NCBI GenBank assembly: GCA_947504205.1
Contig: CANNGL010000003.1
Coordinates: 682,001 to 746,000, forward strand
DNA length: 64,000 nucleotides
Reading direction: 5' to 3'
Origin: an uncultured Litoreibacter sp.
GTDB lineage: Bacteria; Pseudomonadota; Alphaproteobacteria; Rhodobacterales; Rhodobacteraceae
A model generated the notes under the pieces. It saw nothing but the letters and a program-made list of their open reading frames with translations, ran no database searches and was not told where the DNA came from. This document shows positions 11,222 through 29,809 of the stretch, piece by piece. Every line of letters begins with the position of its first letter. Within the stretch, counting starts at the first letter, position 1. Made by a program: the position numbers and the translations under genes.

Positions 11222-12880
11222 ATGGCGGCACTCAACGCAGATACCAGCGCAACAGCTGAAACAATGGCTGGTGAAATCCTAGGTTCGGGATTCACCATCA
11301 ATTCGGCGACCTATTCTGGCGATCCAAACTCGTCTGGCACGTACACCGATGGTGATACGACCAATCCGGATGTTCTACCGTCAGACACTGGTGTTATCCT
11401 GTCGACGGGCAACGTCGCGGATTTTGCCAACGCGACCGGTGCGAACAACCAGTCAGGCGGCACATCCAGCAATACAAGCGGCACAGATGGTGTCTCCCAG
11501 TTTGATACGGCCGCCGGTACCGGTACTTTTGATGCCTCCTATCTGGAGATCAATTTCACCCCTGAGCCCGGACAGACGTCGCTCAATATCGAATTCCGGT
11601 TCTATTCCGAGGAATACAACGAATACGTCTATTCGAACTTCAACGACATTGCGTTGGTGCAGCTTGATGGCGTCACGCAACCGATCTCGGTCGGCTCGGG
11701 TGAAATCTCGGTTAATGGGATCAACAATGCCGGTGCTGTTAACCCAACCAACGGCTCCGAGGCCAATGACCCTAATCCCGGCAACGGACAGTTCGATAGT
11801 GCCAACCCCAACCTTTATGTCGACAACGCCGGGGGCACCTATGCGACCGAGATGGATGGCTTCACCGTCACGCTGTCATTAGACATTCCCGTGGTGCCGG
11901 GTGTGCCACAAACCCTGTTCATTGGTATCGCCGATGTCGGCGACAGCGCCTGGGACAGCTCAATCGTGATCGCGTCCAACAATTCAGACGCCACCGATAC
12001 TGATCCTATCGCGACCGATGACATGGGGATCGAAACCTTTGGGGCAAATCCAAAGACGGTTGACGTGTTGGCGAACGACACCGATCCGAACGGGCAGACC
12101 CTGACAATCACCGAGATCAACGGTGTCTCCGTCGTTGCGGGCGATACCGTTACCTTGGCGACCGGTCAGGAAGTCACGCTGAACGCGAATGGCACGATAA
12201 CGCTGGTCAATGTCGGCGGGGCTACGGGGCCAGCATCATTCAGCTACACGATTTCCGACACGGACGGGAATACTGACAGTGCATTTGTCAGCTTCGACGC
12301 GCAGCCGATCTGTTTTGTCGAAGGCATGCGAATTGCGACACCTCATGGTCAGCGTTTGATCGAAGATATTGTCCCGGGGGACCGCGTCTTGACTCGTGAT
12401 CATGGGGTTCAGACTGTGCGCTGGCATGGCATCAGAACATTGGCAGGTGGCCCGAAGGTCAATCCGATTGAAATCGCGCCGGGTAAGTTCGGTAACGATC
12501 GCCCACTGCTGTTGTCGCCCCAACATCGTATTTTGGTCGGCGACATGCGCACACAACTCTATTTCGGCGAAGAAGAAGTGCTGATCGCAGCGAAACATCT
12601 GGTCGATGGCCATTTGGTTCGGATACGCGAGGTGGCTGAGGTCACGTACCACCATATCCTCTTTGATCAGCACGAAATCGTGTTTTCCGAGGGCGTGCCA
12701 ACGGAAAGCTTCCATCCCGGTCACTATTCTCTTCCGGGCCTGGACAGTCGTTCACGGCAGGAATTGTTCGAACTTTTCCCGCAGCTTCGCTCGGACCCCG
12801 TTGGTTTCGGGCCCTCTGCACGGATGAGCGTCAAAGCTGCCATGGCCGGTGTCCTGCTTGAGCCGCAGCCTTGTCACTGA
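11222..12880 (+). CDS. Choice-of-anchor L domain protein with C-terminal Hint domain
   Basis: N-terminal 'FRFYSEEYNEYVYSNFNDIALVQLDG' (choice-of-anchor L), middle 'DVLANDTDPNGQTLTIT' cadherin-like/VCBS-type segment, C-terminal 'CFVEGMRIATPHGQRLIEDIVPGDRVLT' Hint_2-like. Confidence 0.85.
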   Translation: MAALNADTSATAETMAGEILGSGFTINSATYSGDPNSSGTYTDGDTTNPDVLPSDTGVILSTGNVADFANATGANNQSGGTSSNTSGTDGVSQFDTAAGTGTFDASYLEINFTPEPGQTSLNIEFRFYSEEYNEYVYSNFNDIALVQLDGVTQPISVGSGEISVNGINNAGAVNPTNGSEANDPNPGNGQFDSANPNLYVDNAGGTYATEMDGFTVTLSLDIPVVPGVPQTLFIGIADVGDSAWDSSIVIASNNSDATDTDPIATDDMGIETFGANPKTVDVLANDTDPNGQTLTITEINGVSVVAGDTVTLATGQEVTLNANGTITLVNVGGATGPASFSYTISDTDGNTDSAFVSFDAQPICFVEGMRIATPHGQRLIEDIVPGDRVLTRDHGVQTVRWHGIRTLAGGPKVNPIEIAPGKFGNDRPLLLSPQHRILVGDMRTQLYFGEEEVLIAAKHLVDGHLVRIREVAEVTYHHILFDQHEIVFSEGVPTESFHPGHYSLPGLDSRSRQELFELFPQLRSDPVGFGPSARMSVKAAMAGVLLEPQPCH

Positions 12881-25070: not shown

Positions 25071-25186
25071 AGCTGGAAAATCGTTCTGAAAAGACCCCCT
25101 ATTTGCGGGGTGACAGGTGGAATTTCGATTGTTAGGCTCCGACCGTTAAAGCGCGGAAACACTGCGCTACGAAATGGGAGGACTTC

Positions 25187-26167
25187 ATGACAACACGTCT
25201 ATTCAAGGCGCTTCTTACGAGTGCCGTGGTGGCTGTTTCCGCCACTGGTGCAACAACCTTCGCCACATCTGCTGCGGAATGTATCGCTCCGGCAAACCCG
25301 GGCGGTGGTTGGGACTTCACCTGCCGCCAGATCGGCAAAATCCTGTTCGACATCGGCGCGGTCGATAAGCCCGTTCAAGTCACAAACATGCCCGGCGCTG
25401 GTGGTGGCCTGGCCTATAACACCGTTGTAAGCGAGCGCGGCTCCGATGAAGATCTGATCGTTGCTGCATCCTCTGCGACAACCACACGACTGGCGCAAAA
25501 TGCATATGCTGGCATGACCGCTGATCAGGTGCGCTTCGTGGGTGCAATCGGTGCCGACCCCGGCGTTATCGTCGTTGCTGCAGACAGCCCCCATCAGTCA
25601 CTTGGTGATCTTGTTGAGGCGATCAAAGCCGATCCCGGCTCGGTTGCCTTCGCTGGCGGTTCTGCCGTTGGTGGCTTTGACCATCTGAAGCCACTGATGA
25701 TCCTCAAAGAGGGCGGTTTCACCGACATCACCAAGGTGAAATATATTGGTGTCGATGGCGGCGCGGATGCGATCACACAAACCGTTGGTGGCTTCACGCA
25801 GGCGATGACAGGCGACATGTCCGAAGTCGTGTCGTTCCTTGCCAATGGCGACATTCGCGTGATTGCCGTGCTGACGGATGAGCGCGTGCCGGGCTTTGAC
25901 GATATCCCGACTGCGAAAGAGCAGGGCTATGATGTCGTCGCGGTGAACTGGCGCGGTCTGTATGTGCCAAAAGGCATCTCAGACGCCAAGTTTGACGAAT
26001 GGGCCGGAAAGCTTCAGCAAGTTGCTGATAGCGCTGAATGGGCTCAGGCGATGAAAGACAACGGTCTTGCTCCATTCACCAAGGTTGGCGGAGACTTCCA
26101 GTCTTACGTCGATGGTCTGGTAACCGAGATCAACGCCATGTCCAAAGAGCTGGGGGTTCTCCAGTAA
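25187..26167 (+). CDS. tctC: Tripartite tricarboxylate transporter substrate-binding protein (TctC)
   Basis: Signal peptide; 'CIAPANPGGGWDFTCRQIGKIL...VTNMPGAGGGLAYNTV'. Confidence 0.9.
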   Translation: MTTRLFKALLTSAVVAVSATGATTFATSAAECIAPANPGGGWDFTCRQIGKILFDIGAVDKPVQVTNMPGAGGGLAYNTVVSERGSDEDLIVAASSATTTRLAQNAYAGMTADQVRFVGAIGADPGVIVVAADSPHQSLGDLVEAIKADPGSVAFAGGSAVGGFDHLKPLMILKEGGFTDITKVKYIGVDGGADAITQTVGGFTQAMTGDMSEVVSFLANGDIRVIAVLTDERVPGFDDIPTAKEQGYDVVAVNWRGLYVPKGISDAKFDEWAGKLQQVADSAEWAQAMKDNGLAPFTKVGGDFQSYVDGLVTEINAMSKELGVLQ

Positions 26168-26655
26168 TGGCATCAGACCGTATTTTCGGTCTGATCACTT
26201 TGATTACGGCGGTCGCATATATTGCGGCCGCCACTCAAATTCAGACGAACTTTTTCTCCGGGGAATTTCTGCCCAAACTGTTCCCGCTCCTGATCGGTGG
26301 CGTCGCGGCTCTGTGCTCGCTGACAATCCTGTTCAAACCGGACCCCGATCCAGACTGGCCCATCGGCCACACGTGGCTGGCCATGGCGATCGCCGTTCTG
26401 GTTCTTGCGATCTACGCCGTGCTTCTGACGCCCATGGGTTTTCTCATTCCGACGGCATTCGCTGCAGGTATCCTGAGCTATCAGATTTCGCCCCGCGCCA
26501 TACCTGCGATCCTGTCAGGTATTGGTCTATCGCTTGGGTTGTTCGTCTTGTTCAAATACGCACTTGGTCTGGGCAATATCGTGGCCTACCGAATTCCGAC
26601 GGCAGCAAAGCTCTGGGATGCGTTGACCATTCTTATTCCGTTTGTGGGGCATTGA
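26167..26655 (+). CDS. tctB: Tripartite tricarboxylate transporter small membrane subunit (TctB)
   Basis: 4-TM small protein between tctC and tctA; TAATG overlap with tctC. Confidence 0.85.
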   Translation: MASDRIFGLITLITAVAYIAAATQIQTNFFSGEFLPKLFPLLIGGVAALCSLTILFKPDPDPDWPIGHTWLAMAIAVLVLAIYAVLLTPMGFLIPTAFAAGILSYQISPRAIPAILSGIGLSLGLFVLFKYALGLGNIVAYRIPTAAKLWDALTILIPFVGH

Positions 26656-26656
26656 T

Positions 26657-28162
26657 ATGGATATTCTCGCAAACCTTGCTCTTGGCTTCGGCGTAGCGCT
26701 TTCGCCCTATACCTTGTTCTTAGCGATTTGCGGTTGTTTTCTGGGCACAATAATCGGCGCGTTGCCGGGGCTTGGTCCGTCAAACGGCGTCGCAATTCTG
26801 ATCCCGATCACCTTCACACTCGGCCTTGATGCGACATCGGCCTTGGTGCTGATGACAAGCGTTTACTATGGCGCGATGTATGGGGGACGGATCAGTTCGA
26901 TCCTGCTCAACATCCCCGGTGACGAGCCTGCGCTGATGACAACACTTGATGGCTATCCAATGGCCAAGCAAGGCCGCGCGGGCGACGCGCTCGTTCTGTC
27001 AGGTGTTGCGTCTTTCGTGGGCGCTTTTCTTGCAACCGTCGGTCTGATGCTGCTGGCTCCGACCCTGGCGCGCGTAGCATTCTTCTTCGGCCCGGCGGAG
27101 TATTTCGCACTCTATCTTCTGGCGTTCTGTACACTGGGCGGCATGGCTTCGAACAATCAGGCCAAAGCAGCGCTTGCGGCCTGCATTGGTCTTGGCATCG
27201 CGATGATCGGCGTTGATTCATCATCCGGCCTGCCTCGCCTGACCGGGGGCAATCTGCACCTTTACGACGGGATAGACTTCCTTGTTGCGATTGTGGGGCT
27301 GTTTGCCATCGCTGAAGTCTTCTTCTTCATCGAGAGCCACGGGAAAGGCTCGTCCATTGGTGTGAAACTCGACAAAGTTCGCATTCCTTGGAAGGACATC
27401 GTTTCGACCAAATGGACCATGCTGCGCGCCTCTGGCGTCGGCTTCGTTGCTGGTATCCTGCCCGGTGCCGGGGCCTCACTTGGATCATTTCTTGCCTATA
27501 TGTCCGAAAAGTCATTCGCGGGTGAGAAAGGCGGCTTTGGCACTGGTGTTCCCAAAGGCGTCGCCGCACCCGAGGCCGGCAATAATGCAGCCGCTGGCGG
27601 CGCGCTCGTGCCGATGCTGACACTTGGCGTGCCCGGATCAGGTACGACGGCGGTTTTGCTGGCCCTGCTGATGACACTGAACATCACGCCAGGGCCTACG
27701 CTCTTTACCGAGCGGCCCGAGGTCGTCTGGGGCCTGATCGCATCACTTCTCATCGCGAATGTCGTTCTGCTGCTGATGAACGTGCCGATGGTGAAAATCT
27801 TTGTCAAAGTGCTGATGGTTCCCGCTTGGATTTTGCTGCCGGGTGTCACGATGATCTCATTTGTCGGTATCTATTCCCTGTCGGGCAGCTATTTTGATCT
27901 TCTTCTCATGGTCGCTTTCGGCATCCTTGGCTATTTCCTGCGTAAGCTCGATGTGCCAACAGTGCCGGTTATTCTGGGTATCTTGCTTGGGGGTAATATG
28001 GAGGATGCGCTGCGCCGTGCCATGACCCTGTCAGATGGTGATGTGACCTATCTGTTCTCTAGCCCAATTGCCGTTGGCCTTTGGATTGCCGCCATTGCGG
28101 GTTTTGTGGCGCCGATGTTCTTGCGCGGCGTTCTGAAAAAACCACCGGCAGTGACAGACTGA
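26657..28162 (+). CDS. tctA: Tripartite tricarboxylate transporter large membrane subunit (TctA)
   Basis: 'GCFLGTIIGALPGLGPSNGVAILIPITFTL', 'YGAMYGGRISSILLNIPGD', 'GVAAPEAGNNAAAGGALVPMLTLGVPGSGTTAVLL'. Confidence 0.95.
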   Translation: MDILANLALGFGVALSPYTLFLAICGCFLGTIIGALPGLGPSNGVAILIPITFTLGLDATSALVLMTSVYYGAMYGGRISSILLNIPGDEPALMTTLDGYPMAKQGRAGDALVLSGVASFVGAFLATVGLMLLAPTLARVAFFFGPAEYFALYLLAFCTLGGMASNNQAKAALAACIGLGIAMIGVDSSSGLPRLTGGNLHLYDGIDFLVAIVGLFAIAEVFFFIESHGKGSSIGVKLDKVRIPWKDIVSTKWTMLRASGVGFVAGILPGAGASLGSFLAYMSEKSFAGEKGGFGTGVPKGVAAPEAGNNAAAGGALVPMLTLGVPGSGTTAVLLALLMTLNITPGPTLFTERPEVVWGLIASLLIANVVLLLMNVPMVKIFVKVLMVPAWILLPGVTMISFVGIYSLSGSYFDLLLMVAFGILGYFLRKLDVPTVPVILGILLGGNMEDALRRAMTLSDGDVTYLFSSPIAVGLWIAAIAGFVAPMFLRGVLKKPPAVTD

Positions 28163-29517
28163 TGACACGCGTCCTCGTTCCATCCGGCGCGCTCGGCCTC
28201 AACTACGACAAAGAGGCCCTGCGTCGTGGCATTGCGGCCAAGCCGGACATTATAGCCATTGATGGCGGGTCGACCGATAGCGGCCCGTCTTATCTGGGCA
28301 GAGGTGTCTCGAAATACGCACGCAGCTCAACCAAGATCGAATGGGCCGGGTTGATGGAGGCGCGGGCGGAGGCCGGTTGCCCTCTTGTCATCGGCACTGC
28401 GGGCACGTGCGGGGCCGACAGCGCGGTCGATTGGATGCTCGATATCACGCGCGAGATTGCCTCCGAGCAGGGCCGTCCGCTGAAGGTAGCGGTACTGCGT
28501 AGCTCACAAAGCCCGGTCGATGTGGCTCAAGCCTTTCTGGAGGCAAAGGTGGCACCCTTGGCCAATGCGCCTGAGATCAGCGCAGATCTGATCCGGAACT
28601 GTACCAATATCGTGGCTCTTGCCGGCGCGGAGCAGATCGACGCAGCACTTGCCACTGGCGCAGATATCGTGATTGCGGGGCGCACCACTGACACGGCCAT
28701 CATTGCTGCCTTGCCCTTGCGTGAAGGATGCCATGTCGGCGGGGCATGGCATGGGGCCAAAATAGGGGAGTGCGGCGCGCTTTGTGCCAGCAATCCCCAA
28801 TCCGGTGTGATCCTTGTGGATTTCGACAAAGACGGGTTCACCGTCACCCCGCTTGCAGATGGTGCCCATGCGACGCCCCACACGGTGTCTGCACATATGC
28901 TTTACGAGAATTCGGATCCCTTCATTCTCTACGAACCCGGCGGTTATCTGGACGTCACCGACGCCACATATGATGCCGTTGATCAGACCAGCGTGCGCGT
29001 GAGTGGTTCAAAATGGGTCCCCTCGGATCAGTATTCCGTGAAGCTCGAAGGTGCCCGACCTGCCGGGTTTCAGACCGTTTTGATGGCTTTGTTGCGCGAT
29101 CAGCATTACGTGGCGAACGCACAGCGCTGGGCGGATGATATTGTCGAGAAATGCTCGGCCAAGGCGCGGGATCGTCTGAATCTGACTGCGGCGGACTTCC
29201 AGATAGAGATACGCCTGATCGGCCAAACCGCGAGCTTTGGTGACTTGGAAAGCAATCAGACCACACCGCCTGAAGTCGGGGCAATTGGGATCGTCACGGC
29301 CAAATCGGAAGCCCTGTCACAGGAAATCGGCCAGCTTCTCAATCCTTATCTGCTTCATCACCCGCTGACGGCCGAGGAGGAGCAACCGACCTTCGCATTC
29401 CTCTTTTCTCCGGCAGAGATGTATCGGGGCCAAACCTACGAGTTTGCATTGAACCATGTATTGCACCTGAGCGATCCCATGGAAGCCTTCAAGCTGGAGG
29501 TACATGAGATTGGCTAG
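28162..29517 (+). CDS. AtuA-like (DUF1446) acyclic terpene utilization family protein
   Basis: 'PSGALGLNYDKEALRRGIAAKPDIIAIDGGSTDSGPSYLGRG', 'IVIAGRTTDTAIIAALPLREG', 'LAHMLYENSDPFILYEPGGYLD'-type AtuA motifs; TGATG overlap with tctA. Confidence 0.82.
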   Translation: MTRVLVPSGALGLNYDKEALRRGIAAKPDIIAIDGGSTDSGPSYLGRGVSKYARSSTKIEWAGLMEARAEAGCPLVIGTAGTCGADSAVDWMLDITREIASEQGRPLKVAVLRSSQSPVDVAQAFLEAKVAPLANAPEISADLIRNCTNIVALAGAEQIDAALATGADIVIAGRTTDTAIIAALPLREGCHVGGAWHGAKIGECGALCASNPQSGVILVDFDKDGFTVTPLADGAHATPHTVSAHMLYENSDPFILYEPGGYLDVTDATYDAVDQTSVRVSGSKWVPSDQYSVKLEGARPAGFQTVLMALLRDQHYVANAQRWADDIVEKCSAKARDRLNLTAADFQIEIRLIGQTASFGDLESNQTTPPEVGAIGIVTAKSEALSQEIGQLLNPYLLHHPLTAEEEQPTFAFLFSPAEMYRGQTYEFALNHVLHLSDPMEAFKLEVHEIG

Positions 29518-29809
29518 GCTAGGGGATCAGGTTCAGAAAATACGCAGCAAAAATGCCGGGCCGTTCTGGCTCACGATTGATATCTTTTGCGGCTCGCAGG
29601 AGGCCTACGAGGCGATCGTCGCAACCTTGCCGACAAGCCGCGTGGCTCAGACGTTCGGCACAAGCCTTCAGAACATCAAGCGGTTCGATATTTCGCAGCT
29701 TCATGTCGTCAAATTCAGTTTGCCGCGACCCACAGTGCAGGGCGCGCCGAATGACAGGGATATGCATGGTGCCTCATGGGCGGCGCTTTTATCTGACATC
29801 GACTTGTGA
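29504..29809 (+). CDS. DUF4387 family protein
   Basis: 'KIRSKNAGPFWLTIDIFCGSQEAYE...VKFSLPRPTVQGAPNDRDMHGASWAALLSDI'; overlaps the AtuA-like gene by 14 nt. Confidence 0.82.
   Translation: MRLARLGDQVQKIRSKNAGPFWLTIDIFCGSQEAYEAIVATLPTSRVAQTFGTSLQNIKRFDISQLHVVKFSLPRPTVQGAPNDRDMHGASWAALLSDIDL

Follow-up and report, generated by a model that had tools for sequence, protein, structure and literature searches.

A conserved TctCBA transporter operon of Rhodobacteraceae whose AtuA-DUF4387 pair resembles the two subunits of citramalate lyase

Background

The closest described relatives of the enzyme pair considered here are the chains of PDB entries 9ERQ and 9EVF, deposited as citramalate lyase subunit A (cmlA) and subunit B (cmlB), the second entry bearing the title 'citramalate lyase-ADP-pyruvate complex'. 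The solved chains are near-identical, over their full length, to an AtuA/DUF4387 pair encoded on an E. coli plasmid (L006), which directly follows mal (methylaspartate ammonia-lyase) in a cluster of glutamate mutase, mal and class I fumarase genes. In a 2015 paper a gene in this E. coli cluster was noted as DUF1446, with a function then unknown, and the fumarase of the cluster hydrates mesaconate to (S)-citramalate (PMC4682846), therefore the next step needed is the cleavage of citramalate. From this pathway logic and from the PDB name, we infer that a CmlAB-type lyase acting there provides the closing step of the route already known, which leads to acetate and pyruvate. A literature search falling short of most subscription papers found no functional paper on the AtuA/DUF4387 pair or on 9ERQ and 9EVF.

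Another branch of the same family (PF07287) is the terpene AtuA, whose name refers to the release of acetate by cleavage next to a hydroxyl carbon (PMC4847356), a step of the terpene pathway that an older review assigns to LiuE (PMC4097962). In Pfam, AtuA is still named only for terpene utilization, and DUF4387 still carries only its label of a domain of unknown function. Most members of the TTT (tripartite) transporter family, to which the other genes of the present locus belong, are orphans.

Results

The locus lies in a window of 64,000 nucleotides from an uncultured Litoreibacter sp., in which the initial annotation had described five ordered genes, TctC-TctB-TctA-AtuA-DUF4387, at 25187-29809. 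Open reading frames and a Pfam scan agree with this description (Table 1), all five families exceeding their curated cut-offs, and the three transporter subunits make up a complete tripartite set predicted to import a carboxylate. The junctions were also described correctly (TAATG at tctC/tctB, 1 nt between tctB and tctA, TGATG at tctA/atuA and a 14-nt overlap at atuA/DUF4387), with the caveat that the DUF4387 start is ambiguous, given that ATG at 29504 yields the 14-nt overlap and TTG at 29510 an overlap of 8 nt. The TTG codon sits nine bases after a GGAGG at 29496-29500, and 8 nt is the commonest value of the AtuA/DUF4387 overlap among relatives (58/135). AtuA and DUF4387 are present in one copy each in the genome, which has three other TctA genes, the closest of them only 37% identical to the TctA of the window.

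Table 1. Features of the five-gene unit in the window.
Feature	Position	Strand	Evidence and remarks
TctC, TTT periplasmic solute-binding protein	25187..26167	+	PF03401, E=5e-23
TctB, small TTT membrane subunit	26167..26655	+	PF07331, E=2e-14; TAATG overlap with tctC
TctA, large TTT membrane subunit	26657..28162	+	PF01970, E=5e-147
AtuA/DUF1446, predicted CmlA-like large subunit of an enzyme resembling citramalate lyase	28162..29517	+	PF07287, E=7e-21; 451 aa
DUF4387 protein, predicted small subunit (CmlB-like)	29504..29809	+	PF14330, E=3e-22; start possibly TTG 29510
Gap before tctC, 116 bp	25071..25186	+	sole promoter-sized space in the five-gene unit

A sigma-70 consensus site was looked for in the gap before tctC and none was found; scans for promoter-like sites (3 against 2.6 expected) and terminator-like sites (10 against 6.6 expected) were uninformative. 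Just within tctB, past the TAATG junction, there is a stable 9-bp stem-loop (ATCAGACCG/CGGTCTGAT, window 26147-26212), which could lower the output of TctB and TctA relative to TctC; relatives have a mild tendency to structure at the tctB start (mean z -1.4 over 44 loci, with simple shuffles).

Both proteins of the enzyme pair match the same two PDB entries. In a PDB search, which gave a single match for each protein, phmmer aligned AtuA with 9ERQ_A (E=1.3e-70) and DUF4387 with 9ERQ_B (E=1.1e-7), and Foldseek placed the AF2 model of AtuA (pLDDT 90.9) on 9EVF_A with a TM of 0.91 and 33% identity and that of DUF4387 (pLDDT 87.8) on 9EVF_B with a TM of 0.84 and 30% identity, no other significant match to either model being found in the PDB. 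Assignment of the pair to a class of CmlAB-like two-subunit lyases is well supported by these sequence and model comparisons, the predicted reaction being taken from the deposited PDB names. The two genes are adjacent, AtuA first, in 135/135 loci and overlap in 131/135. Natural fusions of AtuA and DUF4387 into one protein of 692-715 aa occur in two large-genome alphaproteobacteria (L127:7119-9266 and L136:7169-9247). The small protein is probably a distant relative of PF23544, to judge from the profile comparison (hhalign 69.7%, pairwise E=4e-5, colinear across 81 columns), and this likeness, together with the natural fusions, supports the existence of one enzyme with a large and a small part, fused or split. 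AtuA and DUF4387 would accordingly be expected to form one complex.

The earlier proposal that the last two proteins act together is supported by their constant adjacency, by the two fusions and by the fact that their homologues occur as chains A and B within a single crystal structure, while the view that the pair lacks an assigned chemistry no longer holds, since a homologue has been deposited as a citramalate lyase. It had been said that a demonstrated substrate and reaction for such pairs would count against the original interpretation; the deposited names of 9ERQ and 9EVF largely supply them, for a homologue that is only about 33% identical.

Considering these data, the reading that we favour, with reasonable though far from complete confidence, is that of a self-contained uptake-and-cleavage operon, in which TctCBA imports a citramalate-like hydroxy acid that is then cleaved by a CmlAB-type enzyme. 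By analogy with its family, TctC would bind its ligand, a small di- or tricarboxylic hydroxy acid, in the periplasm, for TctB and TctA to bring into the cell. AtuA and DUF4387, alike in sequence and fold to the two subunits of CmlAB, would act as a single lyase cutting the bond beside the hydroxyl-bearing carbon in compounds of the R-C(OH)-CH2-COO- kind, to give acetate and a 2-oxo acid; citramalate itself would yield acetate and pyruvate, as suggested by the name and the pyruvate ligand of the solved homologue. Since ADP is present in the crystals of the solved enzyme, ATP or ADP is probably involved, for example in activating the leaving carboxylate.

Residue conservation was computed on 91 AtuA and 82 DUF4387 proteins with a threshold of at least 90%. 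The window proteins keep every residue above this threshold, including D34, S37, D39, G173, R174, D177, K200, E203, H245, E249, K294, E296 and E371 in AtuA, and R14, K16, N17, D26, K70, R75 and D86 in DUF4387. When the window clade was compared with three CmlA sequences, 78 positions were fixed and identical and 52 were fixed but different, some of the latter flanking invariant residues, as do T176 and T178 around D177 and T38 and S40 around D39 (GRTTDTA in the window clade against GRAYDPA in CmlA, and GSTDSGP against GSSDPGP). In the tree, the window AtuA is not inside the CmlA clade; it falls in a clade of 57 rows (SH-aLRT 99), and the three CmlA rows linked to mal group separately (SH-aLRT 100). 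Mesaconate, glutamate-mutase and mal genes, which would indicate a methylaspartate pathway, are absent from the Pfam-scanned neighbours in the window.

Given the separate clade, the 33% identity and the 52 fixed differences, the substrate of the window clade may not be citramalate. Citramalate is still the single most likely compound, a choice that we regard as tentative, with a close analogue having roughly the same likelihood. The alternative of the same lyase mechanism acting on another substrate, which is a sub-case of the uptake-and-cleavage reading, is accordingly a serious contender that falls somewhat short of an even chance, the candidates, all with a carboxymethyl group on the carbon that carries the hydroxyl, being citrate, 3-hydroxy-3-methylglutarate, a 2-alkylmalate and hydroxy acids of plant or algal origin. 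It is favoured, besides the clade-specific differences, by the presence of a dedicated, co-conserved transporter in place of internal pathway genes, and by the genes found upstream of the transporter: at 58-61 of 136 window-type loci a TctD-like regulator, a kinase of the 2CSK_N type and an additional binding protein are encoded there, mostly divergently, as would befit a substrate taken up from outside. On the other hand, all family-invariant residues are shared with CmlA and the fold matches closely throughout.

Nothing in the matches of TctC singles out one of these acids. It resembles 11 solved TctC/Bug-type binding proteins in sequence, and the closest (25HK, E=2e-29) has an entry description that names no ligand. 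No dedicated TctDE system could be assigned elsewhere in the genome, the best TctD-like regulator (G000:C1:62781) being located about 1.3 kb from another TctA (G000:C1:64783).

CoA-transferase III and citryl-CoA lyase (NF004864) genes flank the operon at three loci (L068:1313-4569, L074:2515-4532 and, downstream, L101:9192-11188), lying directly upstream of tctC in the first, which is from the same genus, and they are found near divergent TctCBA genes at L104 and L201. These adjoining genes hint at a citrate- or citramalate-like substrate class, and possibly represent a parallel, CoA-dependent route for the same acid. Genome-wide, citryl-CoA lyase and DUF4387 do not co-occur more often than expected (19 of 64 genomes, where 19.8 would be expected), so we give little weight to this hint. 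Coupling to citryl-CoA lyase was rejected as a general rule, with adjacency at about 8 loci and genome-wide co-occurrence at chance level.

A further alternative is that the fold was kept and the reaction changed, for instance to that of an ATP-linked ligase, an isomerase or a dehydratase acting on the imported acid. Identity between the window clade and the solved enzyme is only about 33%, and the gene settings of relatives are highly varied (hydantoinase-like genes, ABC transporters, an Ldh-type oxidoreductase), which would agree with a change of reaction, but the invariant residues are kept and two branches of the wider AtuA family, CmlA by its PDB name and the terpene AtuA (PMC4847356), are both named as acetate-releasing lyases, and we consider such a change unlikely.

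The conservation of gene order bears on whether transporter and enzyme belong together. Two partly overlapping samples, with some contigs in both, were used. One comprised 80 DUF4387 loci with their flanking sequence, mostly 18 kb, taken from the Rhodobacteraceae-type and other proteobacterial genomes of a survey; the other comprised 80 loci retrieved by scanning a genome collection with the AtuA alignment. Where AtuA was of the window type, the full five-gene order was colinear at 45/55 and 63/69 loci, respectively. The 1-nt overlap of TctC and TctB recurs in 75/110 relatives and that of TctA and AtuA in 52/112; because these junction types recur, the arrangement is conserved and not a product of chance. 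The five genes are thus kept together in most of the related marine bacteria that carry them, in agreement with the original description of a single unit. The possibility that pair and transporter are accidental neighbours handling different compounds is very improbable: the pair does lack this transporter at 10/55 and 6/69 sampled loci, but more than 80% of window-type loci are colinear, with overlapping stops and starts, even though flanks and chromosomal site vary.

DUF4387 is carried by 92 of the 298 Rhodobacteraceae-type genomes sampled, about a third, most scoring like the window type, and by 16/21 genomes of the same genus; about 100 further copies of the five-gene operon were found, mostly in Rhodobacteraceae. 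Among the other same-genus loci examined, none has DUF4387 within about 1.5 kb of yqgE, its neighbour in the window, on the side that it occupies there, and yqgE and the dsbD-like neighbour remain together in same-genus genomes; therefore the five-gene unit seems to change site as a cassette.

The AtuA-DUF4387 pair itself is more widely distributed. It was found beside mal/glutamate mutase genes (L006, L011, L119), ABC transporters (L008, L109-L115), hydantoinase-like genes (L007, L013) or another TctCBA (L004, L014, L080), and at four loci with no adjoining transporter recognised (L071, L078, L092, L095). Therefore the minimal conserved unit is AtuA-DUF4387 and not the five-gene operon, TctCBA being the partner of one large clade. 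Independence of the last two genes from tctCBA, which the initial annotation had named as evidence against its proposal, is thus seen in part, the pair being widespread without this TctCBA.

Several of these loci have features of their own. A second Rhodobacterales subfamily of the pair (L109-L115, L120, L144, L146), with AtuA 27-29% identical, lies beside ABC transporter genes and is accompanied by recurrent genes of its own (clusters c9, c14, c20). On a haloarchaeal (Halomarina) plasmid (L010:6625-8309), the pair is surrounded by amidohydrolase, isochorismatase-family, CoA transferase, CoA ester lyase and 3-isopropylmalate dehydratase-like genes. A divergent DUF4387 match at L129 (G272:C1:477745-477993; 34.8 bits, far under the others), with a weak AtuA-like match alongside, looks like a decayed or distinct subfamily.

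The Pfam-scanned genes flanking the operon are housekeeping or unrelated (AsmA, YqgE/AlgH-like, DsbD_N and others) and include no atu-type carboxylase, hydratase or acyl-CoA ligase, in line with the initial annotation; elsewhere in the window, a 552-aa protein with a bacterial Ig/cadherin-like repeat and a C-terminal Hint_2 domain (11222-12880) is encoded beside a zinc-uptake (ZnuA/ABC-3) cluster. Terpene-type AtuA proteins are long (open frames of 606-647 aa) and in many surveyed genomes carry a fused C-terminal PF23544, unlike the 451-aa window AtuA, which is without this domain, and PF23544 has no match in the genome. Degradation of acyclic terpenes (citronellol/geraniol), for which only the Pfam name AtuA speaks and which this architecture and the missing atu-type neighbours contradict, is hardly credible, as already thought when the locus was first described.

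Discussion

The locus is a TctCBA-linked operon, conserved among relatives, with an enzyme pair from a lyase family that has recently been solved. The link to a solved two-subunit lyase makes a widespread orphan transporter operon testable, and would also indicate which class of ligand is likely in a transporter family rich in orphans. The TctCBA-linked clade might even represent a lyase of its own, dependent on a nucleotide and releasing acetate, that acts on a carboxylic acid other than citramalate, a proposal that we put forward as speculative; if true, it would be an undescribed carbon-source pathway, widespread in bacteria of the roseobacter group and moving as a five-gene cassette.

Regarding known systems, the locus has in common with TctCBA transporters under TctDE-type regulation all three subunits, and many of its relatives also have the upstream regulator and kinase, whereas no two-component system adjoins the operon in the window. 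The five-gene order is identical in an operon on a Paracoccus seriniphilus plasmid (JHW44_RS14280-RS14300), whose AtuA is 62% identical to that of the window and whose flanks and site differ. That plasmid also carries, about 4 kb downstream of the operon, a second TctCBA adjoining molybdopterin oxidoreductase and ornithine cyclodeaminase genes (L003:14501-20291). With CmlA/CmlB the window pair shares two adjacent genes, the same folds, all invariant residues and a predicted two-subunit make-up. It differs from them in its low identity (33% and 30%), in its separate clade with 52 clade-specific AtuA differences, and in its genomic company, a TTT transporter in place of the glutamate mutase, mal and fumarase genes that accompany CmlA/CmlB.
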